Positions 964 to 34,910 of a stretch of 38,450 nt of DNA are shown piece by piece. The position numbers and the translations under genes were made by a program. Origin of the DNA: a virus; the IMG/VR virus record IMGVR_UViG_3300013119_000454, positions 1 to 38,450 of that record, one strand, 5' to 3'. Numbering within the stretch: position 1 is the stretch's first letter; every line of letters starts with the position of its first letter. The notes beneath the pieces were generated by a model that saw nothing but the letters and a program-made list of their open reading frames with translations, was not told where the DNA came from and did not search any database.

Positions 964-2312
964 TATCTCACCCCCGCAATGTTAAATAAGTTTTCATCTC
1001 TTGAGTATTGAGGCCGATTAGGCGCATATTGTCTTTGCTGCTCCTTCGATACCTCTCCCATCTGGCTTACAGCCATGATGAGCGCGTCAAATAGATTAGG
1101 TGATTTTACACCGAGCTTGCGCATTTTCTCCTTCGATACTAGCACTCTGCGTTGATTATGGTCGAAGGTATATTGCACAGTCAGGGCTTCCTCTCGTATC
1201 TTATCATCCGGGATACAGATATGCCCTTTAAGAAGTAAGTCCTTGAGCTTATAGGCATTGATTGTTCTGGGATTGCCAAAGGATTTATTCCTGTCATAGC
1301 CTATATTGGGATTGCGAAACCCCACAAACTTCGAAAGCCCCCGGCCCTTATTCAGGGTATCGAGAGGGCCAGCCCCCAGGCCATCTTCATCAATGATGTC
1401 CTTATCGGTCTTGTATTCATTTGAGATCATCAAGATGCGCCCGGTTGTATAGTTCAAATCTTTATGCTCCCATTCATCCGCATATATGACTTCCCAATGG
1501 AGCGCGCCCATCTGCTGTAGGATAACGGCCGCGCACTTGTCATCGCCATAGCGCGCTATGTCATATCCGGCCACGCGTAACCCATAGCCATTCCGAAGTG
1601 GGTACTTATTTGTCTTGCTATGATTGAGCTCAGATAAAGTATAGAGAATGTCCTCAGTTCTGTCTATCGGGTTGCCGAGCCATATATGGTTATAGTCGTT
1701 CTCGCTTATCTTCTTGCATTCCTCTGCTTCCTTCTTGAGGGCTAGAGTGCAGAAGGGGTTTTCATCATAGTTGATATTGATATGTAGGCAGTCCTCGCGG
1801 TTAATGAACATCTTGTAAACCGGGTCATTGTGCAAGTATCTATTCATGGTGAAGAAGATTTTGGCATTGTCTTTCCTGATAGTGGGGATAAGGACATCCA
1901 GGGTTTGCTTTGTGAGGGCCTGGGCTTCATCTATCCATACTATATCAATACCCTCCATTCCCTGAATGTTAAAGGCTCCCTGTTCTCGGAAGCCTCTGAA
2001 ATTGATAGGTGAGCCTGTTTTCCTATGGGTTATCTTGGTGGATAGGACTTCATAGTTAAGCTGGTTCGCTTGGATAAGATCAGACAGTAGAGAATAGACA
2101 GATTCGGTTATGCTTTTTTGTATCTCACGGCCGCAGGCTACTCGCACCTTATATTTCTCGGCTAGGTACAGAATGAAGCGGCCTACTGCCTGGGATTTCC
2201 CTCCGCCTCTGCCGCCCTCGATAAGGAAATAACGGTATTTATCGAGATCAGTTATTATGGGGAGGAGCTTATCTGGCATATCTAGGATCTTGGGAAGGGT
2301 TAGAGTAGTCAT
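963..2312 (-). CDS. terL: Terminase large subunit (packaging ATPase/nuclease)
   Basis: A 449-residue packaging motor that pumps DNA into the prohead and cuts it. Walker A is GGRGGGKS (residues 33-40). Walker B is IDIVWIDEA (122-130), with the catalytic Glu at 129. The nuclease half shows acidic residues in VAGYDIARYGDD (Asp251), IIDEDGLGAG (about 307-310) and NLFDALIMA (Asp409), as in the RNase H-like nuclease of Terminase_3/PBSX-type proteins. Length is normal. The start overlaps the upstream stop (ATGA). A headful mechanism would fit a circularly permuted genome, but the family assignment from sequence alone does not prove it. Confidence 0.95.
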   Translation of the reverse strand: MTTLTLPKILDMPDKLLPIITDLDKYRYFLIEGGRGGGKSQAVGRFILYLAEKYKVRVACGREIQKSITESVYSLLSDLIQANQLNYEVLSTKITHRKTGSPINFRGFREQGAFNIQGMEGIDIVWIDEAQALTKQTLDVLIPTIRKDNAKIFFTMNRYLHNDPVYKMFINREDCLHININYDENPFCTLALKKEAEECKKISENDYNHIWLGNPIDRTEDILYTLSELNHSKTNKYPLRNGYGLRVAGYDIARYGDDKCAAVILQQMGALHWEVIYADEWEHKDLNYTTGRILMISNEYKTDKDIIDEDGLGAGPLDTLNKGRGLSKFVGFRNPNIGYDRNKSFGNPRTINAYKLKDLLLKGHICIPDDKIREEALTVQYTFDHNQRRVLVSKEKMRKLGVKSPNLFDALIMAVSQMGEVSKEQQRQYAPNRPQYSRDENLFNIAGVR

Positions 2313-2572
2313 CCTAAATTGTACTCCAATAGGCGATTGCCCGGCGTGTCTACTCCTGGAATACCTTTCTGAATGTTTGACATTTCAATTACTCTTACGT
2401 CAGCTTGAAGATTGGTTTGGGAAGGAATAGTCTTTTTAGATAATTCAAGCGCTACCTTTAACTTATTGGTATCGCTGAACTTATCAAAATTGACTAACAG
2501 AAATTGCCAACACTTATCGAGGACTTTCTCTCTTGTGGCTTTACTATGTCCGCTTTTATCTGCATTGTACAT
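2309..2572 (-). CDS. Probable terminase small subunit
   Basis: An 87-residue protein ending in a four-base overlap (ATGA) with the large terminase gene, the usual place of the DNA-recognising small subunit. The N-terminal half is basic and helical (SGHSKATREKVLDKCWQF), followed by a second helix (TNKLKVALELSKKT), and the tail is extended. It is shorter than most small terminases and I see no clear helix-turn-helix, so the call rests mostly on position. No Shine-Dalgarno site precedes the ATG. A promoter places the predicted transcript start on or within a base or two of that ATG, suggesting leaderless translation. Confidence 0.6.
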   Translation of the reverse strand: MYNADKSGHSKATREKVLDKCWQFLLVNFDKFSDTNKLKVALELSKKTIPSQTNLQADVRVIEMSNIQKGIPGVDTPGNRLLEYNLG

Positions 2573-2814: not shown

Positions 2815-2997
2815 TTAGATAAGGCTTAATCCTACATGGACTTCGCTAAAAAATCTCCAGCAAATCCATATCCAAGATAAAAGGTGCGCAATTACGCAAA
2901 TAATCTTTGTAGATGCGCTATCGTTTTCCTCTATCAGATGTTTGGCCCAAAAAACCATCCACATATACCCACCGAAAATGTAAATTAACCAATTCAT
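2815..2997 (-). CDS. Small membrane protein, 60 aa
   Basis: A hydrophobic protein with two likely membrane segments: residues 2-18 (WLIYIFGGYMWMVFW) and about 31-49 (KIICVIAHLLSWIWICWRF), joined by a short polar stretch. It is very rich in Trp. An AGGAGG site lies five bases before the ATG, and the upstream small ORF stops directly before it (TAGATG). The role is unknown. Its size and topology could suit a holin-like protein or a partner of the membrane glycosyltransferase encoded upstream in the same operon. Confidence 0.65.
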   Translation of the reverse strand: MNWLIYIFGGYMWMVFWAKHLIEENDSASTKIICVIAHLLSWIWICWRFFSEVHVGLSLI

Positions 2998-3141
2998 CTA
3001 TTCCTCCTTTTTAACCCAAAGCCGCGAGCAATGAAACAAGCAAACAAATCTCGCAGGCGTATTGTATGTCTCCGAAGGAGGAGAGTAGGTAACAGGGATG
3101 GTACCTAGCTTGTTTCCGCCTGTTGACTTTGGGTTTTTCAT
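2998..3141 (-). CDS. Small ORF, 47 aa, overlapping a structured region
   Basis: The ATG at 3141 overlaps the methyltransferase stop, and its TAG directly precedes the next ATG, so it fills the gap exactly as a real operon gene would. The product starts MKNPKSTGGNKLGTIPVTY. This start reminds me of a phage protein family with an N-x-KxG-x-IPVT block followed by Cys-Pro repeats, but the Cys-Pro part is not kept: after SPPSETY the sequence is unlike that family. It may be a decayed or very short member. The same bases form an extensive set of complementary stems (see 3013-3135), so the region may instead act as RNA. Confidence 0.45.
   Translation of the reverse strand: MKNPKSTGGNKLGTIPVTYSPPSETYNTPARFVCLFHCSRLWVKKEE
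3013..3135 (-). other. Candidate structured RNA with pseudoknot (strand uncertain)
   Basis: Nearly the whole stretch can pair with itself. P1 is 3013-3021 with 3127-3135 (9 bp). Another 9-bp stem joins 3033-3041 with 3108-3116. A 6-bp stem joins 3054-3059 with 3117-3122 and crosses it, making a pseudoknot. Local hairpins are 3024-3028/3050-3054 (5 bp), 3069-3073/3080-3084 (5 bp) and 3086-3091/3102-3107 (6 bp). The arms at 3102-3107, 3108-3116 and 3117-3122 are directly adjacent and could stack. All neighbouring genes are minus-strand, so I list that strand, but the pairing works on both. I cannot match it to a known RNA family by eye. Confidence 0.4.
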
Positions 3142-3632
3142 CATAAAAAAATCATTCCTTTACCAATATTAAAACCATTAGTAAACCATGCGGTCGCAAA
3201 CCAACTCCCCGAACCTTTCCCACTTGGGGTTTCAAAATTAACTCTATGAGGCAAAAATATTACCTCAAGACCATGTTTTTTGAATAATTGTTGTCGCTTT
3301 TTTGTTTCAAAAGTAGTAAGTGGCAAAAGGAAAGCAAAAGGCTTATTAAGAAGGTAGGCTCTTTCTAAAAAATCTTGTTTATATTTATAGGGAGGATTTG
3401 TTATTATACAATCGTATCGCGTCGGTTCATACATCATAAAATCATGTCCAGTTAACAAATCGGTACCTACTGTTAAAAACCCTTTAGAATTAAGATAATT
3501 AACTATATTCCCTTTTCCACAAGCACATTCCCAAATTACCCAACCCCTCTTAAGAAAAGGTAATAATGGTTCTATAGCTTCGATAGGTGTTTGGAAATCA
3601 TTAGAGCTCCCTTGTCGTAATGGAGGTTTCAT
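3141..3632 (-). CDS. DNA N6-adenine/N4-cytosine-type methyltransferase-like protein
   Basis: A 163-residue protein. The SAM-binding loop looks like WECACGKGN (residues 34-42) and the catalytic motif is NPPY (79-82), the motif IV of amino-methyltransferases acting on DNA bases or protein Gln. The early NDFQTP block (11-16) is frequent in small phage DNA methyltransferases. It is short and lacks an evident target-recognition domain, so it may be a compact phage form that modifies phage DNA against host restriction. It overlaps the start of the GT-C gene's neighbour by four bases (ATGA). Fold is likely; target unknown. Confidence 0.75.
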   Translation of the reverse strand: MKPPLRQGSSNDFQTPIEAIEPLLPFLKRGWVIWECACGKGNIVNYLNSKGFLTVGTDLLTGHDFMMYEPTRYDCIITNPPYKYKQDFLERAYLLNKPFAFLLPLTTFETKKRQQLFKKHGLEVIFLPHRVNFETPSGKGSGSWFATAWFTNGFNIGKGMIFL

Positions 3633-5002
3633 AATAGTATTGGTAACTTCCCACTTTTATGTTCTTTGATAAATCTCCAGGATTCCTGCTCCTGACCTTC
3701 CACTATGTTTTCTGCGGCCTTTTGTAGATATTGGTCTGCCTCTTTATCATTCTTTAAAAGTCGCAGGACTGTTGCTATGTTCATAAGCACTTTGAACTCT
3801 TTTGGAGATATAAGATTTGCCATTACCCAAAGAATAAGGGCCTCTTTATAACTTTTGGTATCCCATCGCTTCATGCCTCGGCAATGCCAGGCCCACCATG
3901 CGTGCGGGTCTTCTATGACTGCGCATTCGGTGATGTAATATTCATCCTTGTATAGCATAAGAGTATAGAATGTACGCGTGGCATAGAATACCAAGAAGAC
4001 TGTTATGGCTATAGGTGATCTGATAAGGATTTGAGCGAGGAAATACATTAGGAAGATATTAGGGAGTGCTGCAAAGCGTTCGGCGATCTCCTGATTGGCT
4101 CTTTTTAGGTTGCAGAAAGGCGCTATCGTTATCATAAAGGCAAACAAGGCCCAAGACATACTATTCCAATTATGCCAGGAGTAGACTACCCATGCTATGC
4201 CGACAGTAAGCCCTATCCAAAAGAACTTGCACAATGAGTAGGCGCGCTTTCGCATTACTATGTTCCCGGCGCAGGACTGAAGGAAGGCATGATAAAAGGT
4301 TATCCTGAATGGAACAAGGCAAAGGGTTAAATAGAATCCGAAGGTCTTTATGGCCAAGATTAGCTTCCGGGCATGGAATCGGTTGTCCTCTGTAAAGGAC
4401 TCAGCCCCATGTTTTGTTTTGACTGCGGTTACAAACTTCCTTGAGTGAAGAAACCATATTATAGGCATCAGGGCTAGGAGATACCATTTAGCTGATCCAA
4501 TTAAGGCAAGCGGGGCCAGGAAACCTATCGTGAATGATGAGCAGAAAAATAGCATGAGAGGAGAAATATATGGTAAGGCCATAGCACTCAGAAGCCCTAC
4601 CATCGGCAAAGCATATCCCCGGCCACCGGGCCATATGGTACCCTGGTTATTGGCAGGATTGACAGAGTAGAGAAGCGCGGCTAGGAAGGCTATGTTAGTT
4701 CTTCCAAAAGCGAAGTATATCAGAATACAGATAAGAATATGTATGAGAAGGGTGAAGAAATGTTCCTGTTGCTCATTCTTGAACTTAACAAGCTTGAGTC
4801 TTTTTTTCTCCCATTTGAAAGCCGCAGTGGTAGAGTATATTTTTGCCTGGCCTAGAACCTGGAGCCAGCGCCGGTGCCAGTTATTCTTAAACTTTGGAGG
4901 GTTTTTCCATACAGAGAAATCATCTGAGACGAACTTATATCGTAGGGTTTTGAAATAAAGTAATAGATTTACTACTATTATGATACCGAGTTTTTCAAAC
5001 AT
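3629..5002 (-). CDS. GT-C membrane glycosyltransferase with C-terminal TPR (TMTC-like)
   Basis: A 457-residue polytopic membrane protein resembling TMTC/DUF1736-type O-mannosyltransferases, which use a lipid-phosphate sugar on the outer face of the membrane. Family signs are an acidic pair in the first loop (FVSDD, 24-28), a helix like HFFTLLIHILICILIYF (81-97), VNPANNQGTIWPGGR (114-128; the family has HP...E...W.sGR), FGFYLTLCLVPFRITF (221-236) and ERFAALPN (308-315). About residues 365-430 form TPR-like helices. The consensus His of the HP motif is Asn here. It is in one operon with a DPM1-like synthase, a plausible donor maker. Acceptor unknown. Such a protein is unusual in a 38-kb phage. 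Confidence 0.75.
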   Translation of the reverse strand: MFEKLGIIIVVNLLLYFKTLRYKFVSDDFSVWKNPPKFKNNWHRRWLQVLGQAKIYSTTAAFKWEKKRLKLVKFKNEQQEHFFTLLIHILICILIYFAFGRTNIAFLAALLYSVNPANNQGTIWPGGRGYALPMVGLLSAMALPYISPLMLFFCSSFTIGFLAPLALIGSAKWYLLALMPIIWFLHSRKFVTAVKTKHGAESFTEDNRFHARKLILAIKTFGFYLTLCLVPFRITFYHAFLQSCAGNIVMRKRAYSLCKFFWIGLTVGIAWVVYSWHNWNSMSWALFAFMITIAPFCNLKRANQEIAERFAALPNIFLMYFLAQILIRSPIAITVFLVFYATRTFYTLMLYKDEYYITECAVIEDPHAWWAWHCRGMKRWDTKSYKEALILWVMANLISPKEFKVLMNIATVLRLLKNDKEADQYLQKAAENIVEGQEQESWRFIKEHKSGKLPILL

Positions 5003-5999
5003 TCTTCATCCCTTCTTTTATCTGCCTCCATAAGTATTTCAAATCATCCATGTCGTGAATGTCCCGGAGCTTATTCAACCAGAACTCCGGGGATCGGGCC
5101 ACTCTATAGATGTGTTTAATATATCTATTGTGCGATGGAATATTTTTTGAATCCGGCGGAATATAAAAAGATGCTTGTGCAGTTTTGGCGTAGCCTTTCT
5201 TAAGAAGCCAATGGACAAGTCTAAGGGTTTCAAGTGCATCACAATCTCGCTCCCACGGATAGCCAAACATGACCGCCACGTGAGGTTCAAGGCCCGCTTT
5301 TGCCGCTTTGATAATGTATTTGTAGTCATCGACTCGCACCCCCTTATTTATTTTGTCAAGAGTCGCTTGATTAGCCGACTCAAGGCCGAATAGCACCATT
5401 CGAAAACCTGCTTGGGCCATTCGAAAATAGTCCACGTCAACCATACGCATATTACAACCCAAGCGTAAATCCCATAGACGTTTATTCCGTTCCTTAAAGA
5501 ACTCTGAAAGGAAGTCATCCAACCATTTGCCAACTGGGAAAGTTCCGCTATCATCGAACACCTCCTTAAAGCCTAAATACTCGCACCTTGCTAATTCCTC
5601 TATTATGTCAGCGACTGGCCTTACTTCCCATTCGTTTTTCTGTTCTACACAAAAAGTACATTGTCCATGCCAGCAACCATTTGCGACTTGCATATAAGTA
5701 CCAGGATGATATTTAAAATTGCCATTTTGCTGGTATCGTTTATCAAAAGCGTCAGTAAATATTCTATCGGGGGCAGGCAATCGAAGAAAAGATATACTTC
5801 CGGGTTTTCTTATAATTTTGTCGTAGCAAACTCCATCATAAAAATGCCCAACTGGCATATCTGTTGTAGCCCAAGTTACATCATGACCTACTTGTCTATA
5901 GTGCTCTGCCTCCATAGCCAAATGAACCGGATATATCCAACGCTTCTTTTCTCGCTGGCGTTGCTGAGAGTATTGATTAGGAAGAAATAAGATTTTCAA
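4995..5999 (-). CDS. Radical SAM enzyme (B12-binding-type family)
   Basis: A 334-residue radical SAM protein. The iron-sulphur cluster motif is ANGCWHGQCTFC, with Cys109, Cys114 and Cys117: spacing CX4CX2C rather than the classic CX3CX2C, a variant also seen in GCWWGQCTFC-type enzymes with B12-binding N-termini. A short N-terminal segment (MKILFLPNQY... to about 60) could be a reduced B12-like domain. The SAM-fold core continues with LFGLESANQATLDKINKG (about 213-230), a clear family block. The product is unknown. Operon context suggests chemistry on a sugar or lipid. It overlaps both neighbours (23 bases upstream, 8 downstream). Confidence 0.85.
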   Translation of the reverse strand: MKILFLPNQYSQQRQREKKRWIYPVHLAMEAEHYRQVGHDVTWATTDMPVGHFYDGVCYDKIIRKPGSISFLRLPAPDRIFTDAFDKRYQQNGNFKYHPGTYMQVANGCWHGQCTFCVEQKNEWEVRPVADIIEELARCEYLGFKEVFDDSGTFPVGKWLDDFLSEFFKERNKRLWDLRLGCNMRMVDVDYFRMAQAGFRMVLFGLESANQATLDKINKGVRVDDYKYIIKAAKAGLEPHVAVMFGYPWERDCDALETLRLVHWLLKKGYAKTAQASFYIPPDSKNIPSHNRYIKHIYRVARSPEFWLNKLRDIHDMDDLKYLWRQIKEGMKNV

Positions 6000-6957
6000 T
6001 TATAGACTCCATATTATATTTATATTCCCAGTTCGGATAATCCCGTCGGAACTTTGAGACATTGCTGATATACCATTGATGATCGCCTTTACGAGGTTTA
6101 TCAATATATTCATGTTTTACTTTCATAACACGTAGGGCTTCTAAAACAGAAATGTTTGCGTGTCGACCACCACCCATATTATAAACTTCTCCAGGCCGAG
6201 GATTAAGAATGAACTCATAAAAAGCGCTTGCTAAATCATGTGCATGAATATTATCTCTGACTTGTTTTCCCTTGTAACCATAAACCTTATAGATTTTATT
6301 TTCTTTTTTACATTTCGCCATATAGGATAAGAAACCATGAAGCTCTACTCCGGCATGAGCCGATCCGGTGATACAGCCACATCTGAATGTGCCTGTTTTT
6401 AAACCGAAATATCTCGCATACTCTTGAGCTAATAAATCTCCCGCAAGCTTTGATACTCCAAAAAGAGAGTGCATACAATAATCAATAGGCATACTTTCAT
6501 CTATTCCCAAAGCCAAGCCCTCATACCTTTCTTCTTTTTCAATTAAAGGTATCCTATTCGGTCTATCTCCATAAACCTTATTTGTAGACACATAAACAAA
6601 AACTGCATCGGGGCAATGATGTCGGACGGCCTCTAGTAATATAAGCGTACCTGTGGCATTAATTTTGAAGTCAGTAAATGGGTCTTTAGCAGCCCAATCG
6701 TGGGAAGGCTGAGCGGCCGCATGAATAATGACGTGAGGCCTTATTACGTTGATAAACTCTGTGGAGCTTCTAATGTCAAGATGACAGTGTCTATAGCGGG
6801 GATGCTTTACTACGTTTTTGGCGACAGAGCCTTCCGGCCCGAAGAACTCAGCGCGCATATTGTTATCCATGCCTACGACATCATGGCCTTTTTCTAGGAA
6901 GAACTTTACGCATTCTGAGCCTACTAGACCGGCGGAGCCTGTAATAAGAACTTTCAT
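5977..6957 (-). CDS. NAD-dependent sugar epimerase, CDP-paratose 2-epimerase-like
   Basis: An extended short-chain dehydrogenase of 326 residues. The NAD loop is GSAGLVG (7-13). Blocks STNKVYGDRPNR (124-135), MHSLFGVSK (162-170) and GVELHGFLSYM (203-213) closely match CDP-paratose (tyvelose) 2-epimerases, which invert C2 of a CDP-3,6-dideoxyhexose. Phe replaces the usual Tyr of YxxxK (FGVSK), as I recall for this subfamily. No CDP-sugar synthase or dehydratase is encoded here, so any donor must come from the host, or the true substrate differs. It overlaps the radical SAM gene by 23 bases and has an AGGA site upstream. Confidence 0.82.
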   Translation of the reverse strand: MKVLITGSAGLVGSECVKFFLEKGHDVVGMDNNMRAEFFGPEGSVAKNVVKHPRYRHCHLDIRSSTEFINVIRPHVIIHAAAQPSHDWAAKDPFTDFKINATGTLILLEAVRHHCPDAVFVYVSTNKVYGDRPNRIPLIEKEERYEGLALGIDESMPIDYCMHSLFGVSKLAGDLLAQEYARYFGLKTGTFRCGCITGSAHAGVELHGFLSYMAKCKKENKIYKVYGYKGKQVRDNIHAHDLASAFYEFILNPRPGEVYNMGGGRHANISVLEALRVMKVKHEYIDKPRKGDHQWYISNVSKFRRDYPNWEYKYNMESIIENLISS

Positions 6958-7079
6958 GACTTTTTTCCTTTTTCTTTTTCGTCAAGATAATACAATAGAG
7001 GTTTCAATAAAATTTCCAGAGCAAGCGGTACTATTATTACCAAGATAAATATTACTATTACCCATTCTGCTATACCCAT
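6954..7079 (-). CDS. Tiny single-pass membrane protein, 41 aa
   Basis: The ATG at 7079 is preceded by AAGGAG (7091-7086), and the stop overlaps the epimerase start (ATGA). Residues 5-25 form one hydrophobic helix (EWVIVIFILVIIVPLALEIL) followed by a charged tail (DEKEKGKKS). No family is recognised. The strong ribosome site and exact stop-start overlap argue that it is translated. It may anchor a glycosyltransferase or epimerase at the membrane. Confidence 0.72.
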   Translation of the reverse strand: MGIAEWVIVIFILVIIVPLALEILLKPLLYYLDEKEKGKKS

Positions 7080-7093
7080 AATTTCTCTCCTTG

Positions 7094-7219
7094 TTATCCC
7101 TTGTTTTTTCTGTGTTTCCGTACCATATCATTAATACAAATATCAATAATGGGGAATACAAAGCCAACGATCAATACTATGACCGCTATGATCGCAAAGA
7201 ATATGATAAACAATTTCAT
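7094..7219 (-). CDS. Tiny single-pass membrane protein, 41 aa
   Basis: The ATG at 7219 follows AGGAGG by five bases and overlaps the stop of the glycosyltransferase upstream (ATGA). Residues 3-25 are a hydrophobic helix (LFIIFFAIIAVIVLIVGFVF) with a basic tail (VRKHRKNKG). A longer open frame to 7345 exists, but only this internal start has a ribosome site. It has the same length and topology as the next gene (6954-7079), yet the sequences are not clearly alike. Role unknown. Confidence 0.72.
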   Translation of the reverse strand: MKLFIIFFAIIAVIVLIVGFVFPIIDICINDMVRKHRKNKG

Positions 7220-7914
7220 ATCTTCCTCCTGAAAAATCCTCTTACAAAATTGAACCCATACACTATTATACCAGAAATCCAACCAAGAAGCGCCAGCCTT
7301 ATCAAATGCCCCCTGTGTTTCCCATAAGTAGCTACTTGTTTCCAAAAAGGTTTGAACAGGGGCCGGCGCTGATGATACACGATAATGTCAGGACTATAAA
7401 ATATGCTTCCATTTATCTCCCGGCAGAATAAACTATCCTCACCTGTAAGATAGGGCTTGAACTTGGGGGCCTTATCTTTCCATACAATCAAATTGAAAGA
7501 AGGGAACTCCGCAACCACCCTGGGGCTCTTGGGAGCTACGCGATACGAATAAGGCAACCATCTATAAACCAAATCGGCAGCCTTCTCCCATAAAGATGAA
7601 TCTGGGGGAAGTATGCCAGGGCCACAGACCGCCGCATGATACTGCAAATGAATTAATGCCTTGTCTAGCCAATCCTCCTGTGGGTAAGCATCTGAATCTA
7701 TAAAGGCAAGAATATTTCCTGTAGCTCTTTCCATAGCCCAGTTTCTTTTTGTGGCAGGGAAGCCAGGGCAGGCTTTATCGTCAACAACAATTATTTCTTT
7801 ATTGTTAGGTAAATACTCACAATTTTTTATACAATACCATGATTGGCCATCTATTTCTTTGCAAGGTATAATTATAGAAACTTTATTTTTAAGCTCTCTA
7901 GGAATGTTCGCCAT
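7216..7914 (-). CDS. Family 2 glycosyltransferase
   Basis: A GT-A fold transferase of 232 residues that adds a sugar from a nucleotide donor at the cytosolic membrane face. It opens with the strand VSIIIPCKE (12-20), has VDDKACPGFPATKRN (44-58) for nucleotide binding, the metal-binding FIDSDAYP (71-78, DxD) and an acidic GEDSLFC block near residue 155. The tail (LIRLALLGWISGIIVYGF) is a likely membrane-associating helix. AAGGAG precedes the ATG. Donor and acceptor cannot be inferred. Confidence 0.88.
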   Translation of the reverse strand: MANIPRELKNKVSIIIPCKEIDGQSWYCIKNCEYLPNNKEIIVVDDKACPGFPATKRNWAMERATGNILAFIDSDAYPQEDWLDKALIHLQYHAAVCGPGILPPDSSLWEKAADLVYRWLPYSYRVAPKSPRVVAEFPSFNLIVWKDKAPKFKPYLTGEDSLFCREINGSIFYSPDIIVYHQRRPLFKPFWKQVATYGKHRGHLIRLALLGWISGIIVYGFNFVRGFFRRKI

Positions 7915-8432
7915 ATAGCTCTCCTTGACATTGATTTTGTTATCTCTGCTTCAACAGGAACTTCTACAATTTTAAGTTCTCTCCTGTGAGCGGCTGCAAG
8001 TATTTCCACATCAAATAAAAATCCATCAGTTTCCCATGTTCTTAAAGCTGAACTTCTAAAAAGTTTAATGCCTGTTTGAGTATCACATGGAAGGCCGAAC
8101 ATAAGTCGAATATATATGCGCGATAGATAGGTAAGGATTTTTCTTTGCAAGGGCGCATATGTCATTCTTTTTGAGCCTACCACCACATCAAAGTCCTCTA
8201 AAAATGGGAGCAATCTTTTTAGCATACGAGGCTCTATGTCTCCATCTCCGTCAAGAAATGCAATATATTTGCCTCTAGCATAATGTAGGGCTTCTCTCAT
8301 AGCCCAGCCCTTGCCTTTGCCATCCCGATCGACTGCAATAATAATCTGATTGGCAGGCAGAACTCGCTCTATTTCAGCTATCAACTCTTGAATATTATCC
8401 TCATTATGGTTTGGTATTAGGATAGACAGCAT
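7872..8432 (-). CDS. Polyprenyl-phosphate sugar synthase-like glycosyltransferase (DPM1-like, GT2)
   Basis: A soluble GT2 of 186 residues resembling dolichol-phosphate mannose synthase, which loads a sugar onto a polyprenyl phosphate. Key blocks are the initial LSILIPNHNE, the metal site LDGDGDIEP (about 60-68 from the chosen start), VGSKR, CDTQTGIKLFR (about 116-126) and GFLFDVEILAAA. It lacks the C-terminal membrane domain of some homologues. The ATG at 8432 has AAAGGAG seven bases upstream. A TTG two codons earlier sits too close to that site. It pairs logically with the GT-C protein at 3629-5002, which would use such a lipid donor. Confidence 0.85.
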   Translation of the reverse strand: MLSILIPNHNEDNIQELIAEIERVLPANQIIIAVDRDGKGKGWAMREALHYARGKYIAFLDGDGDIEPRMLKRLLPFLEDFDVVVGSKRMTYAPLQRKILTYLSRIYIRLMFGLPCDTQTGIKLFRSSALRTWETDGFLFDVEILAAAHRRELKIVEVPVEAEITKSMSRRAIWRTFLESLKIKFL

Positions 8433-9207
8433 TGACAAACTCCTTTATAAGTTTTCTTTGACGCGCTTGTATTGCTATTAAATCGAGCCCTGCTATGAGA
8501 GCATATGCCTCAAGGAAGGCCTCTCCCATATAAGGGAATTCGTTTTCAGTAAGAATGATTAATTGCTTGTAGTTTTTTACTTCTATCCCTGTTGAGCCAT
8601 ACACTATTTTTTTGATTTCGGTGCTTTTGTAGCTTGCTGGCATCTCTTTCCAAATAACGGCTTCAAACATAAAAGGCATAAGCATTGCCCTCATGGTTCG
8701 CAATCCCAATGCTATTTTTTCCTGAAAGGTAAGCTTGATATTACAATCCCGAATTGTTTTTGCAGATAAGCAACTTCGGTCTATGCTTCTATAAGCACGA
8801 GCCATCTTGTTTTCAACAACAGTATATTCTTCACAAAATAATTTATGGCCTTGCGATACCATTTTATAGGTTTGATAAGTCTTCCCGGAATTAGGAAGCC
8901 CTACTATCAGAGTATTGCCTACACATGAGGCATGAAGCAATAGTTTATCTTGCAACGCTAGTTTTAGGAGAGTAATTTCCCGTAGTAATATATCCAGATT
9001 AATCCATCCTCTTAATATAAATGGAAGCTTTAAGAACATGGGCGTAACTTCAACCTTGCTTAGGCCCTGGCTTATCAATAACTGGACAGGGAAAAGATAT
9101 TTGCCCTCAAAGTATAGACCGTCTATTTCAGGGTCATACAGAAATTCGCCTATCTTCTTACATTTATCTTTATTGATACGTATTTTCGAGACGACCTTGT
9201 AATCCAT
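8404..9207 (-). CDS. HPr-kinase/PEPCK-like P-loop protein
   Basis: A 267-residue protein whose centre resembles the HprK-type kinases found in polysaccharide loci: LLHASCVGNTLIVGLPNSGKT (from about residue 90, P-loop GLPNSGKT at 103-110), then a helix and FCEEYTVV, where most homologues have an Asp pair. The N-terminal 85 residues form a separate domain, as in those proteins. True HprK phosphorylates a Ser on HPr. No HPr is encoded here, so the substrate may be a sugar or a host protein. An AAGGAG site precedes the ATG. It overlaps genes on both sides. Confidence 0.7.
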   Translation of the reverse strand: MDYKVVSKIRINKDKCKKIGEFLYDPEIDGLYFEGKYLFPVQLLISQGLSKVEVTPMFLKLPFILRGWINLDILLREITLLKLALQDKLLLHASCVGNTLIVGLPNSGKTYQTYKMVSQGHKLFCEEYTVVENKMARAYRSIDRSCLSAKTIRDCNIKLTFQEKIALGLRTMRAMLMPFMFEAVIWKEMPASYKSTEIKKIVYGSTGIEVKNYKQLIILTENEFPYMGEAFLEAYALIAGLDLIAIQARQRKLIKEFVNAVYPNTKP

Positions 9208-10006
9208 CGTATGCTCCTTTCAAAAAGTGATAAATCATTATAGGTTTTCTACGATATAAAAGGGATAAGCAATAAGATATAACAAAAATTGGCAGGAACG
9301 CAATCACATATATGGAGAACCTGATGGGCGACAGGTGTTTCCTTTGAAACAATACGCGATTGCGTCCCATCATATACGCATTTAAAGGCCTGCGAAAATC
9401 TGGTATTCTTGAATAGGTAATTGAATCATGTATAACTTGTGCAAAAGGTGTATAAGCAATTTGGTAGCCCTTTCGCTTTACTCGCAAGCACAAATCAGCT
9501 TCATCTAAGTCTATTGGAAAATGTGTTTCATCGAAGCCTCCGACATCTAAGAACAAATCTCTGCGTATCATAAAAGCGTTTGCAGCTTCATCAACTACAT
9601 AACATTGTGGGGAAAGCAAGTATTTATTCTGTATATCTATAATATTCCAATTAGTATAGCTACCAATAGTAAATCCTGATAGTAAATGTCTTACCGATCC
9701 ACCATCGGCTATTTTTAAAATATCCTTTGCATAACACGCAACCATTCCTACTATCCCAATATTGTAGTTATTTAGAATAAGCATCATGCCGAAAAAAGAA
9801 TGACCTATAAGGTAATTGTCATCATCAATAAACAAAAGATATTCGCCACTTGCTTGGGCTGCTCCTTTATTCCTTTTTGATGCTAATGGCAGATGTTCAT
9901 CGGCAACAACAATAATTTCACAATCCGACGGAAGTGAACGTATTAATCTATCAAGTAAATGCTCTCGGCCTTTTATTGTAGGTATGATAACACTTACCTT
10001 TTCCAT
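9170..10006 (-). CDS. Family 2 glycosyltransferase with C-terminal membrane helix
   Basis: A rhamnosyltransferase-type GT2 of 278 residues. The first strand is VSVIIPTIKGRE, the metal site is FIDDDNY (DDD at 61-63), and the acceptor-side acidic block is IDLDEADLCLRVKRKGY. A hydrophobic stretch near residues 225-250 (FSIYVIAFLPIFVISYCLSLLY) should hold it to the membrane. I chose the ATG at 10006. A frame-extending TTG at 10036 has no ribosome site, whereas AGGA lies eight bases before this ATG. Sugar specificity unknown. Confidence 0.87.
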   Translation of the reverse strand: MEKVSVIIPTIKGREHLLDRLIRSLPSDCEIIVVADEHLPLASKRNKGAAQASGEYLLFIDDDNYLIGHSFFGMMLILNNYNIGIVGMVACYAKDILKIADGGSVRHLLSGFTIGSYTNWNIIDIQNKYLLSPQCYVVDEAANAFMIRRDLFLDVGGFDETHFPIDLDEADLCLRVKRKGYQIAYTPFAQVIHDSITYSRIPDFRRPLNAYMMGRNRVLFQRKHLSPIRFSIYVIAFLPIFVISYCLSLLYRRKPIMIYHFLKGAYDGLQGRLENTYQ

Positions 10007-10761
10007 ATCACATATCCTAGCATTAAGAAGAACCAAATTATCATCTTTGGATGAAACCTACTATGCCGCTTATGAAAACGTAACCAGTTTTTAATACGGC
10101 CAAAATCCTTGACTCTTTCAGAATAATGCGAACCCCTCTGTGGCATATGATAGAGAAAGGCGTGAGGATTATATTCAAGTTTATAGCCGAGTTTCTTGAC
10201 CTTAAAAACTACATCATCATCATACCATTCTGCCACTCCATCGAAGGCCAGGTCGAAGCCGCCCACCTGTTTTATTAAATCCGTTCGCATGGCCCAGTTT
10301 GTGCCTTCCAAATGGTCTATTTGATACTCCTTATTTCGATCGATGTGTTCGCTAAAATTAGAGCCATAAGACACAGAACCACATTTATATATTTTTGCCG
10401 GGGCAAAGGGGTTATTATCGAAAAGCCATCTTAAAAGCCAATTAGGATTTTCTGCTATTCGAATGCTATCTCTGTTTGCCCTATGAATAAAAGAAATAAA
10501 TGTCGGGCCCGTAGAACCAGCAACCTTTGGGTCTCCAAACGGGATAATCAATTCTTGTAACCAATCGGGGGGAAGCTTTACATCATCATCAATACGCACA
10601 AATATATTACCTCTAGCTCTTTTAAGAGCATTATTCATAGCATTAACGATACCTTTTTCTGTGGCTAGTATAATCTCAAAGTCCCGAAAGGTTTGTTTTC
10701 TCAAATCATATTCCAGCTTTTTGGATAATGGCTTAGATGTTAAGACGACAATAGATACCAT
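9994..10761 (-). CDS. Family 2 glycosyltransferase
   Basis: A GT-A transferase of 255 residues. It starts directly with the nucleotide-binding strand (MVSIVVLTSKPL), has a metal site VRIDDDVKLP (DDD at 58-60) and the late block EWYDDDVVFKVKKLGY (about 183-198), typical of rhamnosyl- and related transferases. The C-terminal 20 residues are hydrophobic (MIIWFFLMLGYVIW). GGAG lies five bases before the ATG. It overlaps the GT4 gene upstream by 22 bases and the next GT2 by 13. Donor and acceptor unknown. Confidence 0.87.
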   Translation of the reverse strand: MVSIVVLTSKPLSKKLEYDLRKQTFRDFEIILATEKGIVNAMNNALKRARGNIFVRIDDDVKLPPDWLQELIIPFGDPKVAGSTGPTFISFIHRANRDSIRIAENPNWLLRWLFDNNPFAPAKIYKCGSVSYGSNFSEHIDRNKEYQIDHLEGTNWAMRTDLIKQVGGFDLAFDGVAEWYDDDVVFKVKKLGYKLEYNPHAFLYHMPQRGSHYSERVKDFGRIKNWLRFHKRHSRFHPKMIIWFFLMLGYVIWKR

Positions 10762-11747
10762 ATTTGCTCCGCAATCTTTTCTGCGTCGTGATGTTCTAAA
10801 ACATATTTTCTCATTATTTCGCCTTCTTCTAGCATATCTAATAATTCATATATATATTCTATTAAATCATCCGCATCAATAATTTGCCACGGATAATCTC
10901 CATATACTTTGCGTCTCGTAACAATACAAGGTTTGCCCATTATGCTATATTGAAGAAATGGAGAAGTTACCACGTATTCGTTGCCTGGATTATTGCTCCG
11001 GAGGGCTACTCCTATATCGCAATCATTTATATAACTATACATATAGGAGTAAGGTTTCCAGCCAAAAAACTTTACATTAAGACGATTTGCCTTTTTCATA
11101 AGTCGTTTTTTATCGGGGCCATCTCCTATAATACGAAACTCTATTTCTGGTAAATGATTTGCCGCATCTAAAAGCATATCTACATTTTTATTTCGAGTAA
11201 GCAATCCATGAAACATGACTATTTTTTTGCTTTTATCTTTCAACATATTTGCTGGAAGGAAATCTACAGGATCAATAGGGTCTAATGCCACAAATGTTTT
11301 AGGGATTTTTGTTTTAAACTTTATTTCATCGCACATGACTTCTGATATGGCTATGATACGATCAATAATATTCCATTCTTTTATCTCAAGCCAATGCAAT
11401 ACCTTATATAGCCATCCGCTTGTATAATACATAAGATGAAAATCTCCCATGCGCTTGACGACTTTAGAATTGGGTGATACCATCTTTACGAGACCTGAAT
11501 AAAAAGGAAATGAATCATCACAATATATAACATCATAACCTCGACCTATCACAAGTAAGGGGGCATAGATTATCCAGGCTAGGCTCTTTACGAACTTGAG
11601 CCAATCATTGAGCCTGTTAAACTTGCGATAGGTCAAGAGTTTTACACCGGGCCGCATGAGATACTTGATAGCGGCGTTTGTAGTTCTTATTTGTTCGTAT
11701 GGGTATCTATGAAGGATTGCTATTTTTTTATTTTTATTTTTTTCCAT
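10740..11747 (-). CDS. Family 4-type (GT-B) glycosyltransferase
   Basis: A 335-residue GT-B transferase. The N-terminal Rossmann domain starts KIAILHRYPYEQ. The C-terminal donor domain carries IVMFHGLLTRNKNVDMLLDA (about 182-201), FRIIGDGPDKKRL and an EYVVTSPFLQYSIMGKPCI block, where the usual E-x7-E pair that grips the sugar is only partly kept. This is the only GT-B enzyme in the operon; the others are GT2 or GT-C. It probably adds one sugar to a growing lipid-linked glycan. The ribosome site is weak, but the gene overlaps the preceding 63-codon gene by 28 bases. Confidence 0.85.
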   Translation of the reverse strand: MEKNKNKKIAILHRYPYEQIRTTNAAIKYLMRPGVKLLTYRKFNRLNDWLKFVKSLAWIIYAPLLVIGRGYDVIYCDDSFPFYSGLVKMVSPNSKVVKRMGDFHLMYYTSGWLYKVLHWLEIKEWNIIDRIIAISEVMCDEIKFKTKIPKTFVALDPIDPVDFLPANMLKDKSKKIVMFHGLLTRNKNVDMLLDAANHLPEIEFRIIGDGPDKKRLMKKANRLNVKFFGWKPYSYMYSYINDCDIGVALRSNNPGNEYVVTSPFLQYSIMGKPCIVTRRKVYGDYPWQIIDADDLIEYIYELLDMLEEGEIMRKYVLEHHDAEKIAEQIWYLLSS

Positions 11748-11911
11748 CTGCGATCATATCCTTTATAAACCATTGGTGCATATTTTGGATTTGCTATAAA
11801 TATTTTTCCTTCTTCATAATTATCACCCATTGTAATCCAATCTGTCTCAGCATCAATAAATCTGGTGGGTATTTTACTAAATGCTTCTAACAACAACTTT
11901 CTAATTGCCAT
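11720..11911 (-). CDS. Hypothetical protein, 63 aa
   Basis: I do not recognise this gene. The ATG at 11911 follows the methyltransferase stop by one base and has an AAAGG site seven bases upstream. Longer in-frame starts lack one. The product begins MAIRKLLLEAFSKIPTRF, has a middle rich in acidic and aromatic residues (DAETDWITMGDNYEEG) and a very basic end (RRWKKIKIKK). It has no membrane segment. It lies between a methyltransferase and a glycosyltransferase and overlaps the latter, so it is part of the glycan operon. Confidence 0.6.
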   Translation of the reverse strand: MAIRKLLLEAFSKIPTRFIDAETDWITMGDNYEEGKIFIANPKYAPMVYKGYDRRWKKIKIKK

Positions 11912-11912
11912 A

Positions 11913-12587
11913 TTATAACCTTTCCAGTTTATAAAACACTTGCCATGTCTTTGTTTCCCTTTTATCGACGATTTTAAATTGCTTGCCACAAAATCTCTTT
12001 ATGTCAGCTTCGGAATAGACGTACATAACGTGTTGCTCTACTACCTCATAATATTTATCTGAAATATATATAAGAAGTTGGATTTTATTATCCCTGTGTA
12101 AATCAGGCGTTATTACTCTAGTAACGCCACCTTTACGCTTCACAGTTACTTTAAATCCATCCCGATCGGCTTTCTTTTTATCCCAGACATCAAATATAAA
12201 ATGGCCACCCTTTTTTAATGGTATGCGTTTCCACCAATTATGTTGAGGAATATAATTAATGACATCAAAGAGGGCTGTTGCACAATCAAAGCGAGGGTGT
12301 AGTGGGTATTTGTCTCTATAGAGTTCGGGTGAAAATAAATCCATAATATCGGTACATATAATCCTATCTTTATATTTTTTCGAATTATCTATCATGTCTT
12401 TTGATTCTTCCATTCCTATAATTAAAGTATGGCTTGGAAAATATTTCCAATAGTTAGCAGTCCCACATCCAATGTCTAGTATAGACTTAGGTTTCTCCGC
12501 CCATTTACAAACAAAGTTTATTTCTTTTTTATAGGGCTTGTCAGAATTAAGAAGATTATAGTATTTCGCGTAAGTTTCTGCAAACAT
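11913..12587 (-). CDS. Class I SAM-dependent methyltransferase
   Basis: A 224-residue methyltransferase with SAM motif I at ILDIGCGTANYW (about 36-47), an acidic strand end IIGMEES and motif-like DCATALFDVINYIPQ (about 102-116). The fold resembles small-molecule methyltransferases (Methyltransf_25 type) rather than DNA enzymes; there is no NPPY or DPPY. Its position just downstream of the aminotransferase suggests N- or O-methylation of an amino sugar. This gene and its neighbours appear more AT-rich than the structural genes. An AGGGA site precedes the ATG, and it overlaps the aminotransferase by 32 bases. Confidence 0.82.
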   Translation of the reverse strand: MFAETYAKYYNLLNSDKPYKKEINFVCKWAEKPKSILDIGCGTANYWKYFPSHTLIIGMEESKDMIDNSKKYKDRIICTDIMDLFSPELYRDKYPLHPRFDCATALFDVINYIPQHNWWKRIPLKKGGHFIFDVWDKKKADRDGFKVTVKRKGGVTRVITPDLHRDNKIQLLIYISDKYYEVVEQHVMYVYSEADIKRFCGKQFKIVDKRETKTWQVFYKLERL

Positions 12588-13569
12588 AGATTATATCCCT
12601 TTCTGTTAATGTTAATCCTGATGGTAAATAAAAAGCGTGATCCCACATTTCATTTGAATATGGAAATAAATTATGTGGATAGGGCTTATCCATAATAATC
12701 CTATTTGATGTCAAAAGAAATGGTTGCCTATGATAAGGGAAAAAATATCGTCTACATTCTATATCACGATTATATAATTTTGATACCATCATTCCTGCAT
12801 CTTTCGGGGTCTTAATAAGATACATCCAAGGAACATCCATACCAAACATAGGGATTGCATTATCGGGCAAATTATTAACATACCAACTAGCCATAAGCCT
12901 TTTCTTTTCGACAAATTTATCTATCTGTTCAAGTTGTGCGAGTGCAACTGCAGCTTGTAAATTTGACATACGAAAATTGTATCCATAATCATCATGTATA
13001 AATCTTTGACCTGCATGACAAAGATTTCTATATTTTTTACATCTTTCATATATCTCTTTTTTGTTGGTTGTAATAATGCCACCCTCTCCAGATGTAATAA
13101 TTTTGTTTGCATATAAGGAGTAACAAGCCACTTCTTGAGGTTGAAAAGGTTTCCAATATTGGGAACAATCATCAATGGCTCTAAAAGCTATGGCTTCTGT
13201 AAAAGTACCGAATAAATGACATCGCATTACATTTTCTTCTGTTATTTCCATAAAAGGATCGGTAGTTTCGTAGGGCGATGGTCGCAAACCTGCTCGCATT
13301 GCAGCAAAAAAACAACTTATAATCGTATTATTTGGTACAGCAATTATGCTTTTGAGTTTTAAATCCATGCCATATAGACCAGTTTCAAGAGCTGCCGTAC
13401 CATTGCAGACCGCTATTGCATATTTCGTGCCGGCCCACTTGGCAAAAGCCTCCTCAAAGAGCCGAACAAAGCGACCCTGACTGGAAACCTCACCTTCGTC
13501 TATTGCTTGACATAGATATGCCTTCTCATTGCCCCGCAATAGGGGCTCTGATACTTTTAAAAGGCCCAT
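12556..13569 (-). CDS. DegT/DnrJ/EryC1-family sugar aminotransferase
   Basis: A PLP enzyme of 337 residues that converts a keto-sugar nucleotide to an amino sugar, as perosamine and related synthases do. The PLP lysine is Lys156 in CYSLYANKIITSGEGG. The cofactor-binding Asp is in AIDDCSQY (133-138). CNGTAALE (55-62) binds phosphate. YGYNFRMSNLQAAVALAQL (about 195-213) is a strong family block. Its keto substrate would need a 4,6-dehydratase, which is not evident here unless the upstream GalE-like enzyme supplies it. GGAGG precedes the ATG. It overlaps both neighbours. Confidence 0.92.
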   Translation of the reverse strand: MGLLKVSEPLLRGNEKAYLCQAIDEGEVSSQGRFVRLFEEAFAKWAGTKYAIAVCNGTAALETGLYGMDLKLKSIIAVPNNTIISCFFAAMRAGLRPSPYETTDPFMEITEENVMRCHLFGTFTEAIAFRAIDDCSQYWKPFQPQEVACYSLYANKIITSGEGGIITTNKKEIYERCKKYRNLCHAGQRFIHDDYGYNFRMSNLQAAVALAQLEQIDKFVEKKRLMASWYVNNLPDNAIPMFGMDVPWMYLIKTPKDAGMMVSKLYNRDIECRRYFFPYHRQPFLLTSNRIIMDKPYPHNLFPYSNEMWDHAFYLPSGLTLTERDIIYVCRNLREIL

Positions 13570-14498
13570 GTGGTCTCCTCCCTATCATAATACGCAATCG
13601 TGCGTCTCAGGGCATCCTCAAGTGAAATCTGGGGTCTAGCCTCTATGGTTGAGTAGATTTTGGTGTTGTCAGACTGTAAATGCCATACTTCCCACCTGCG
13701 CTTACGGGTATCATCTTCCTCAACAAAAATCTCTTTTCGCATAAGTATGCCCATCAAGCGGGCCAAATCATATATCTTAATCCCTTCCTCTGAGCCGAGA
13801 TTATAGACTTCGCCATACTTACCTTTTTCAAGCAATTCAACGGCCATTCTCACGGCATCCCTAGCATACATAAAATCTCGGAAGGAGTTATTACCAAGCC
13901 ATACTAGGTCATCTTTGCAAAGTTGTTTATAGATTTCCGGGATAACATAGGGGTGTAGAACATCGCGCTCGCCTACACAGTTGAATTGCCTAAGAGCTAT
14001 GGCCGGGCAACACGACTCTTTAAAACGTGTCTGCACCATTGTATCAATGGCAAGTTTTGAAGCTCCATATGTGGAATGAGGATGGGCCGGCCATTGTTCA
14101 TCAATTCTACCACTAGCATCTCCATAAATCTCAGCAGAGGATACCTGCAATATGCCTTTAACTCCACACTCCTGGGCCGCGTTCATTACCATTAAGGCCC
14201 CGCGCGCATTTATGTCAAAGGTATGGAGAGGCCGCTCATAGGATACCGGCACATAGGGGATCGCTGCATAATTAAAGACATAGTCTATATCATACTGAGT
14301 AAATATTTTCCTCAATTCCGCTTCCGAGTGAGTAATGTCGCACCAAAGAAACCTAGCCTCTGGGTTTATGAACTCCTTGCGACCGGCAATAAGATTATCC
14401 AATACTAGGACATTGTTTTTGCACTCTATAAGATAGTCCACTAAATGCGACCCCAAAAATCCTGCACCGCCCACGACTGCTACATTTTGCTTTTTCAT
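13557..14498 (-). CDS. GalE-like NAD-dependent sugar epimerase/dehydratase
   Basis: An extended short-chain dehydrogenase of 313 residues acting on a nucleotide sugar. It has the NAD loop GGAGFLG (10-16), the catalytic pair Y144xxxK148 (HSTYGASKLA), VSSAEIYGD (119-127) and YARDAVRMA (about 210-218). Because it lies before an aminotransferase it may make a 4-keto sugar, but 4-epimerase activity is equally possible; sequence alone does not decide. AGGAGG lies close to the ATG. It is the first gene of the continuous overlapping glycan operon. Confidence 0.9.
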   Translation of the reverse strand: MKKQNVAVVGGAGFLGSHLVDYLIECKNNVLVLDNLIAGRKEFINPEARFLWCDITHSEAELRKIFTQYDIDYVFNYAAIPYVPVSYERPLHTFDINARGALMVMNAAQECGVKGILQVSSAEIYGDASGRIDEQWPAHPHSTYGASKLAIDTMVQTRFKESCCPAIALRQFNCVGERDVLHPYVIPEIYKQLCKDDLVWLGNNSFRDFMYARDAVRMAVELLEKGKYGEVYNLGSEEGIKIYDLARLMGILMRKEIFVEEDDTRKRRWEVWHLQSDNTKIYSTIEARPQISLEDALRRTIAYYDREETTWAF

Positions 14499-14864: not shown

Positions 14865-15051
14865 TTTTCTTTCCTTTTATTTCTTCCGCTTTCATCTTAT
14901 CCCAAATCATTTGTACAGCTTGTGCGTGCTGAGTAAATATCTTATCGTGTTCTCTGACTTTCTTCAAAACATAAAACATACTCCCAGCGCTCATACCGAT
15001 AGTCAGCGCAATAACAAAACCTGCCACAATTCCTTTGACTGTGTTATTCAT
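14848..15051 (-). CDS. Small membrane protein with basic tail, 67 aa
   Basis: The N-terminus has one membrane helix (VKGIVAGFVIALTIGMSAGSMFYVL, split here around residues 5-29), followed by a helical, basic cytosolic or periplasmic tail. It follows directly on the 3D-domain cell-wall gene with a four-base overlap, so a lysis role such as holin or pinholin is possible. One-helix topology could equally suit a spanin-like component. No family recognised. Confidence 0.6.
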   Translation of the reverse strand: MNNTVKGIVAGFVIALTIGMSAGSMFYVLKKVREHDKIFTQHAQAVQMIWDKMKAEEIKGKKSGRKR

Positions 15052-15446
15052 TTTCTCCTCACTTTCATTTGTAATTTCCCAAGTCTAAAACATCTTTCGA
15101 CTCCCCCCATCCATTTGGGTATGAAGATGTCAATTTTATTACCTTTGATCGCACTTCCTCGATCCCGGCACACAAAAGTGCCATTTTCAGGCTTAGGTAA
15201 TTGAAGCCCCTCGTAATCAATAATAAACTCTGTGCCAAACGGTATAGCTGGATCGCAAGCAATATCACCATACCTAAGAGTACCACCCATAGCGTTAAGA
15301 TCACCCCATTTACCATTTCCACCCTCCTCTCCAGTTGAGTAAAAGGTTATTGTATAAGTTCCAATTCTTGATTCTGCAGCCACTACATAGCCTAGCATAA
15401 ATATTATAAGCACGATTATCACTTTTTCGGTCAAGGTTATACTCAT
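15048..15446 (-). CDS. Exported 3D-domain cell-wall enzyme (probable endolysin)
   Basis: A 132-residue protein with an N-terminal signal or anchor helix (VIIVLIIFMLGYVVAAES; likely cleavage after VAA, residue 24). It is followed by a 3D domain, the double-psi beta-barrel of lytic transglycosylases that cut peptidoglycan glycan chains. The three diagnostic Asp residues are visible in IACDPAIPFGTEF (Asp65), FVCRDRGSAIKGN (Asp95) and KIDIFIP (Asp106). It is the only clear wall-degrading gene in the genome, so it probably serves lysis. Sec export would remove the need for a classic holin. GGAG lies eight bases before the ATG. Confidence 0.82.
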   Translation of the reverse strand: MSITLTEKVIIVLIIFMLGYVVAAESRIGTYTITFYSTGEEGGNGKWGDLNAMGGTLRYGDIACDPAIPFGTEFIIDYEGLQLPKPENGTFVCRDRGSAIKGNKIDIFIPKWMGGVERCFRLGKLQMKVRRK

Positions 15447-16310: not shown

Positions 16311-16339
16311 AGTTTACCATATCTTTTGTGTTTTGTCAA
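16311..16339 (-). promoter_or_regulatory. Sigma70-type promoter before the HTH gene
   Basis: On the minus strand the -35 is TTGACA (16339-16334), the spacer is 17 bases and the -10 is TAAACT (16316-16311). The -35 overlaps the stop of the upstream winged-helix gene. ACTTGACAAAA around the -35 is identical to the promoter at 19271-19299, suggesting joint early use. It should serve replication, lysis and the glycan operon. Confidence 0.8.
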
Positions 16340-34770: not shown

Positions 34771-34910
34771 TGTATCCTCTCTTTCGGTTGTGTTTGTCTT
34801 TTTTGCTTTAGACTTGACTGCCCTCAAAAGAGAGGATCGCGTCTTTCGCAAATCCTTTGCCGGAGCATTTCAGCCTACCCGACCAATCTACAAAGCTAAG
34901 GGGCTTATGC

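Follow-up and report, generated by a model that had tools for sequence, protein, structure and literature searches.

The 38,450-base IMG/VR record IMGVR_UViG_3300013119_000454 (G000), a complete virus record analysed here over its full length (the window), carries an operon for glycan chemistry between its recombination module and its terminase. The genes from position 14498 down to 3141 all lie on the minus strand, nearly all overlapping by a few bases, and they code for two nucleotide-sugar enzymes of the short-chain dehydrogenase/reductase (SDR) type, a DegT aminotransferase, a class I methyltransferase, four GT2 and one GT4 glycosyltransferases (GTs), a PEPCK/HprK-fold protein, a radical S-adenosylmethionine (SAM) enzyme, and a GT-C membrane transferase with tetratricopeptide repeats (TPRs). 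Gene content and order in related phages indicate that the operon is a long-kept core feature of an entire clade of uncultured ~40-kb podoviruses, with a front half that can be swapped. The evidence leans towards a glycan-tailoring role of this core component directed at the host envelope. A more specific and tentative proposal is that the clade carries a core, vertically inherited protein O-glycosylation system, in which a TMTC/Pmt-like GT-C, whose TPRs bind the acceptor, works together with a phage-encoded polyprenyl-sugar synthase and an exchangeable set of sugar genes; this system would re-coat host surface proteins during infection.

The operon accounts for 28–30% of the record. An earlier note on this DNA had placed a sugar operon at 2815–14498 and estimated it at about 30 percent of the genome; that span is 11,684 bases, or 30.4% of 38,450. 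The sugar assignment holds for 3629–14498, whereas the lower end has to be trimmed: positions 2815–2997 hold a 60-residue membrane open reading frame (ORF), and 3141–3632 (minus strand) codes for a DNA methyltransferase-like protein with an NPPY motif (phrog_799, 1.5e-40). The latter, judged by these matches, is not a sugar gene and lies outside the conserved operon; among the related phages compared, its relatives are confined to one near-identical contig. The operon genes are all intact, and their motifs are kept across diverged relatives. The note's gene identities (two epimerases, DegT, a methyltransferase, five GT2/GT4 enzymes and a radical SAM enzyme) agree with Pfam and NCBIfam domains, and its GT-C and HprK-like calls agree with AlphaFold models and VIA structural matches.

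Conservation of the operon across related phages

Relatives of the large terminase (TerL) in IMG/VR bear the same genes at the same place, and ten relatives were fetched and mapped. Gene order in related contigs, which the earlier note had proposed as a check, is retained: G001–G004 and a GTDB contig, C119, share the order methyltransferase-GT4-GT2d-GT2c-HprK-GT2b-GT2a-epi2-radical SAM-GT-C-TerL, and G007 contains the full set, including the first epimerase (epi1) and DegT, but its segment spanning Erf to GT-C is flipped with respect to the structural genes. A similar inversion is seen in G006. The radical SAM, GT-C and GT2b genes are kept in G005, G008 and G009, where the other operon genes are replaced or lie beyond the contig; in G008 and G009 all three sit directly by TerL. 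Of the three proteins retained when the others are exchanged, two are thus GT2b, the presumed donor-maker, and the transferase GT-C. The front half of the operon is swapped for other sugar genes in G005, G008 and G012, and the incoming genes of G005 and G008 code for, among others, radical SAM enzymes of the SPASM and B12 kinds, further GT2s, an amine oxidase and a protein resembling sugar C-methyltransferases.

Across ten near-complete genomes, GT-C is present in all ten, the radical SAM and GT2b genes in nine, and the methyltransferase, GT4, GT2c, GT2d and HprK-like genes in eight. A wider scan identified GT-C on 68 contigs, with TerL downstream on the same strand in 60 of them at a median gap of 1.07 kb, and GT-C beside TerL can serve as a marker for this virus group. 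Pairwise distances of GT-C track those of the portal (r=0.80, 0/2000 permutations) no less closely than those of TerL do (r=0.57); distances of the radical SAM enzyme and TerL do not track each other (r=0.09). The permutation counts ignore phylogenetic non-independence and are a description, not a formal test.

The GT-C membrane transferase

The transferase present in every near-complete genome (GTC457; 3629–5002, minus strand) and the HprK-like protein (g267) have no Pfam domain in the window, and both were therefore modelled with AlphaFold and then compared with known structures. Foldseek alone placed neither model firmly; the VIA comparison placed both. The GTC457 model (457 residues; pLDDT 87.6, pTM 0.86) is closest to Pmt4 (Z 15.1, 294 residues aligned, root-mean-square deviation (rmsd) 4.6), followed by ALG12 (Z 14.8), ArnT (14.0) and PglB (13.8). 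The 22 highest-ranking VIA matches are without exception GT-C enzymes with polyprenyl donors (Z 12.4–15.1, rmsd 4.5–6.6, 257–300 residues aligned). Enzymes of the GT-C class work on the non-cytoplasmic side of the membrane with polyprenyl-linked donors. The C-terminal ~100 residues form the TPRs: TPR_2 is matched in 11 of 21 GT-C members, with a best match of 5.9e-6, a profile reaches 2.7e-13 against TPR structures, and in a PDB sequence search with the GT-C the TPRs are the only matches.

In TMTC O-mannosyltransferases the first luminal loop carries a DD motif, ERxxY follows towards the end of the membrane portion, and TPRs are present as well (PMC7801869). In our alignment of 21 GT-C sequences (A1), D27-D28 is invariant (21/21) and sits in the first external loop, and the ER motif is kept in nearly all members; the Tyr of ERxxY occurs in many divergent members, and the window has ERFAA. 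GTC457 resembles TMTC1–4 and Pmt (GT105, GT39) as well as ArnT in its GT-C fold, and the TMTCs in its C-terminal TPRs; its DD of external loop 1 and ER of a late external loop may correspond to the motifs of these enzymes. It differs from TMTC and Pmt in being viral, in its length of ~450 residues, and in its short TPR part. The TMTC motifs M2 (SHKSYRP), M3 (RxD) and M4 (KE(T/Q)xxT) are not visible in the same alignment, and no DUF1736 match was found in the 21 members; for these reasons the protein is called TMTC-like, not TMTC. In another contig of the scan (L111:5336-7224) the GT-C gene is broken by ~500 bases, possibly an intron or insertion.

Donor synthesis and sugar genes

Polyprenyl-phosphate sugars consumed by GT-C enzymes are made by enzymes such as DPMS, ArnC and GtrB. 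GT2b (7872–8438, minus strand) appears to be a synthase of this kind: its profile (A4) matches DPM synthase (5mlz, 1.7e-8), ArnC (2e-5) and GtrB sll0501 (2.1e-5), and a DGDGD motif is present. It has no membrane anchor of its own. The four further transferases, all on the minus strand, are GT2a (7216–7914; Pfam GT2, 2.8e-8), which has a C-terminal membrane segment and matches the mycofactocin transferase MftF in NCBIfam below the cut-off (2.3e-16); GT2c (9170–10036; Glyco_tranf_2_2, 1.1e-9), with one C-terminal membrane segment by hydropathy; GT2d (9994–10761; Pfam GT2, 2.3e-10), with a conserved acidic D-x-D motif; and GT4 (10740–11747; Glycos_transf_1, 5.6e-12).

Five enzymes suited to making a modified nucleotide sugar are encoded on the same strand. 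The product of epi1 (13557–14498; Pfam Epimerase, 8.5e-49) is a LegB/RmlB/GalE-like SDR epimerase/dehydratase with intact YGASK and GGAGFLG motifs; its best NCBIfam match is LegB (8.9e-39, below the cut-off) and its best PDB match 3icp (9e-32). The DegT/DnrJ/EryC1 aminotransferase (12556–13569; Pfam 2.7e-47) is shortened to 337 residues, retains the pyridoxal phosphate (PLP) lysine motif in an alignment, and matches perosamine synthetase best in the PDB (8e-33). In relatives including G001–G004 and G006 it is replaced by a miniature DegT of ~195–235 residues that keeps the PLP-lysine region and has lost much of the fold. The methyltransferase MT224 (11913–12587; Methyltransf_23, 9.9e-6), with a conserved DIGCGTA motif, is a class I SAM-dependent enzyme for which a sugar substrate is assumed. 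The second SDR enzyme, epi2 (5977–6957; Pfam Epimerase, 3e-36), has FGVSK in place of the catalytic YxxxK, with the Phe invariant in all 11 sequences compared; it may thus have unusual chemistry or a non-redox role. The radical SAM enzyme (4995–5999; Radical_SAM, 2e-14) belongs to the cobalamin-type branch, with a conserved CX4CX2C cluster motif (alignment A3) and profile matches to 9ccb (6.5e-10) and OxsB (1e-4). Radical_SAM is its only Pfam domain, and no N-terminal B12-binding domain was found in the window's protein; the relative G005 encodes a full protein with both. A plasmid search with the radical SAM enzyme returned distant radical SAM proteins only.

The HprK-like protein g267 (8404–9207, minus strand; 267 residues, pLDDT 87.3) is a predicted P-loop kinase-like protein of the PEPCK/HprK fold. 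VIA matches it to PEPCK (Z 10.8, rmsd 4.8, 203 aligned) and HprK (Z 6.4, rmsd 3.7, 103 aligned), and all matches with Z of at least 5.7 are PEPCK or HprK, the sole exception being a chain from a large respiratory complex (Z 6.3). Its P-loop, GLPNSGKT in the window, is conserved as GxxNSGKT (alignment A2). Two tandem ORFs of 41 residues, each with a single transmembrane segment and a good ribosome site, lie at 7094–7219 and 6954–7079 between GT2a and epi2. The two flanking genes abut directly in G001, indicating that the small ORFs are not conserved.

Proposed mechanism and alternative explanations

The enzymes for a modified nucleotide sugar (epi1, DegT, epi2, the methyltransferase and the radical SAM enzyme) are identifiable from sequence, and the polyprenyl-phosphate-sugar-synthase-like GT2, the four further transferases and the GT-C with TPRs, recognized by sequence or predicted structure, are conserved and syntenic across the clade. 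Beyond a GT-C plus a polyprenyl-sugar synthase, all steps of the following scheme are inferred. The operon would be read together with the early genes from sigma70-like promoters. GT2b would load a sugar onto polyprenyl phosphate in the cytoplasm, the remaining GTs would extend or branch it, and a host flippase would carry the lipid-linked sugar across the membrane. The GT-C would then move the sugar to an acceptor on the outer face, with the TPR domain holding a protein acceptor such as a pilin or other surface protein. An acceptor in the host envelope is likely because the GT-C class is active across the membrane from the cytoplasm, and a protein is suggested because the TPRs hint at one; lipid A or an O-antigen sugar would be a less likely acceptor. 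The changed surface may block adsorption of competing phages, or prevent the loss of progeny to debris left by lysed kin. Exchange of the front genes would change the sugar, while the kept core of radical SAM enzyme, GT2b and GT-C would attach it. Modification of receptors by glycosylation is an established mechanism of phage exclusion (PMC11436027, PMC3688519).

The earlier note had proposed that the phage rebuilds host surface glycan or glycosylates its own protein. The anatomy of the operon appears to favour a change of the host surface over virion glycosylation, because the one transferase retained throughout, a GT-C, is of a non-cytoplasmic class using polyprenyl-linked donors; "rebuilds", however, is too strong a word. 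Glycosylation of the virion itself (capsid or tail fibre), which could provide stability, camouflage or adhesion and has been proposed for some actinobacteriophages, is the less probable of these two roles. The operon does adjoin packaging and structural genes, the GT-C co-diverges with the portal, the soluble GT2/GT4 enzymes could work in the cytoplasm, and two phage-encoded glycosyltransferases have been suggested to glycosylate the capsid of mycobacteriophage Maravista (PMC11256854). However, the most conserved transferase belongs to a class active outside the cytoplasm, where virions do not assemble, and virion glycosylation does not call for a complete lipid-linked route. It is improbable that the operon is a complete O-antigen, capsule or exopolysaccharide locus supplying the host with a new polymer. 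Similar kinds of genes (SDRs, DegT, a methyltransferase and several GTs) occur in such loci, but no domain of an initiating phosphoglycosyltransferase, Wzx, Wzy or an ABC exporter was found in the operon proteins, and the GT-C is Pmt/ArnT-like, not Wzy-like. Because initiator, flippase and polymerase were not found, addition to an existing acceptor is likelier than a new polymer.

A pathway for a secondary metabolite, such as one resembling ribosomally synthesized and post-translationally modified peptides (RiPPs), in which the radical SAM enzyme, HprK-like kinase and GTs tailor a small peptide or lipid acting on the host or on rivals, seems quite improbable. The radical SAM enzyme is nearest to cobalamin/RiPP-type C-methyltransferases, GT2a resembles MftF, SPASM radical SAMs occur in relatives, and the 41-residue ORFs lie inside the operon; set against this, those ORFs are not conserved, no precursor-peptide or RiPP recognition element domain was recognised, and DegT, SDRs and GT-C typically belong to glycan pathways. 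There is still less reason to suppose that the sugars are placed on bases of the phage DNA as a shield against restriction. Phages do glycosylate DNA, and the DNA methyltransferase-like gene adjoins the operon, but that gene is missing from other phages, the window has no recognisable hydroxymethyl- or deoxypyrimidine pathway, and DNA modification would have no use for a GT-C and a polyprenyl donor. Finally, an origin of the operon from bacterial DNA, attached to a phage through an assembly error or a single transduction event, can be set aside. GC content is lower over 9–13 kb (0.34–0.38), but numerous independent metagenomes, as well as a GTDB contig, show the same operon and junctions, and these related contigs refute such an origin. 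Both an assembly join with bacterial DNA and relatives lacking the operon, with breakpoints at its ends and bacterial flanks, were looked for and not found; the relatives keep the phage context, as expected if the operon belongs to the phage.

Several points weigh against the proposal of host-surface glycosylation. A GtrA flippase domain was not recognised among the operon proteins, nor a four-helix ORF in the operon by hydropathy. The position of the TPR domain outside the membrane is deduced from the Pmt-like topology, and some of the GTs could act on virion proteins in the cytoplasm instead. Early expression and surface change as a benefit are points that we infer only. No host could be assigned from binning, Methanoperedens CRISPR spacers or a scan of the phylum, and the glycan and its acceptor are putative. 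Tyrosine recombinases, two proteins identified by motif, are encoded by G002 and G003, and at least some phages of the clade may therefore be temperate; only two of eight relatives have one, which weakens the case for a lysogenic state in which seroconversion would pay.

Comparison with known systems

Most known cases of surface conversion by phages involve small cassettes of three genes or a single gene, carried by temperate phages that infect enterobacteria and Pseudomonas. The Gtr seroconversion operons (gtrA-gtrB-gtrC) are borne by the temperate phages P22, SfV and epsilon34. The present operon resembles them in being phage-borne, in combining a GtrB-like polyprenyl-phosphate GT2 with a membrane transferase that would be acceptor-specific, and in consisting of a conserved and a variable part. 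Unlike Gtr, it lacks GtrA, its GT2b lacks the membrane anchors of GtrB, its membrane transferase bears TPRs, and ten further genes would make and branch the sugar, so that the sugar cassette is far larger as well as swappable. The conserved part is here the membrane transferase and the variable part the sugar genes, the reverse of Gtr, and no integrase is seen in the window. Bacterial O-antigen, capsule and glycoprotein loci likewise swap cassettes of SDR, DegT, methyltransferase and GT2/GT4 genes between strains. The operon differs from O-antigen and capsule loci in that no initiator, flippase, polymerase or export genes were recognised, and in being phage-borne beside a terminase.

In this clade of ~40-kb phages, glycan chemistry takes up more than one quarter of the genome. 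The clade offers a testable case of a phage that may bring its own pathway from sugar to lipid to surface, and a new source of GT-C enzymes.

Relatives beyond the clade and the host

Among 50,697 deposited phage records, no relative was found of either the GT-C or the HprK-like protein; the radical SAM enzyme has one partial match, and the epimerase many distant phage relatives (~27–29% identity in the best rows). The presumed attaching enzyme is kept as faithfully as the portal, yet two key proteins have no relatives among deposited phage genomes. The nearest cultured relatives of the portal and tail tube B are Pelagibacter podoviruses (HTVC010P, Skadi and Greip; 31–37% identity), which share these virion proteins while no deposited phage has a relative of the GT-C or HprK-like protein. 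The metagenomic podovirus MW202898 (31–33%) has no such operon in its annotation. More distant GT-Cs (25–31%) stand alone in a few larger phages (47–48 kb) of other kinds, as expected if the GT-C is an effector able to use a host donor. No paper on such an operon was found in the open-access literature.

The single GTDB match is a full phage of the clade of 40,847 bp (L139, contig C119 of G016) in a metagenome-assembled genome (MAG) of Candidatus Methanoperedens. Methanoperedens was considered as a host and rejected. None of 578 CRISPR spacers from Methanoperedens genomes gave a match beating the reversed-spacer control, and a close GT-C relative occurs in one of 393 genomes of the phylum, that MAG only; for these two reasons C119 is probably misbinned.

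Virion genes and other features of the window

The window is a phage genome, with genes for portal (36662–38362), major capsid protein (33898–34851), tail tube A (32669–33262), tail tube B (30375–32669), internal virion protein and fibre, TerL, and an Erf/exonuclease pair that forms the recombination module (17512–18839). A T7-type podovirus tail set of head-tail connector, tail tubes A and B and internal virion proteins is present (phrog_332, 5e-121; phrog_376, 1e-176; phrog_394, 4e-34; phrog_418, 5e-11). TerL is encoded at 963–2312 (minus strand; Terminase_3, 5.5e-23). A gene at 2309–2572 (minus strand), the next conserved gene past the operon in relatives, may code for a small terminase-like protein, judging by its position and conservation. 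The record ends in a 119-bp exact direct repeat that shows it to be closed; the repeat may also be an assembler k-mer overlap, since that of G007 is exactly 127 bp.

Two sigma70-like sites on the minus strand, at 19299–19271 (TTGACA-17-TATACT, 11/12 matches) at the head of the early region and at 16339–16311 (TTGACA-17-TAAACT with an extended -10 TG) upstream of the run into the operon, are consensus matches that fit a bacterial host and early transcription. Promoter and terminator totals in the window are near shuffled expectation, and single sites are therefore weak evidence. Directly upstream of the operon, 15048–15446 codes for a 3D-domain protein that has a hydrophobic segment at its N-terminus and may be a wall-active enzyme. 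Outside the operon, 19309–19827 codes for a 172-residue protein that belongs to no known family and is predicted to have four membrane helices, making it a candidate holin or flippase. A Methyltransf_24 protein is encoded within the structural module at 36171–36665, between portal and scaffold, and is present in two copies in G006. The tail tube B protein of G001–G003 contains a long insertion after ~100 residues, and in G001 and G002 it forms one ORF of ~1,200 residues.

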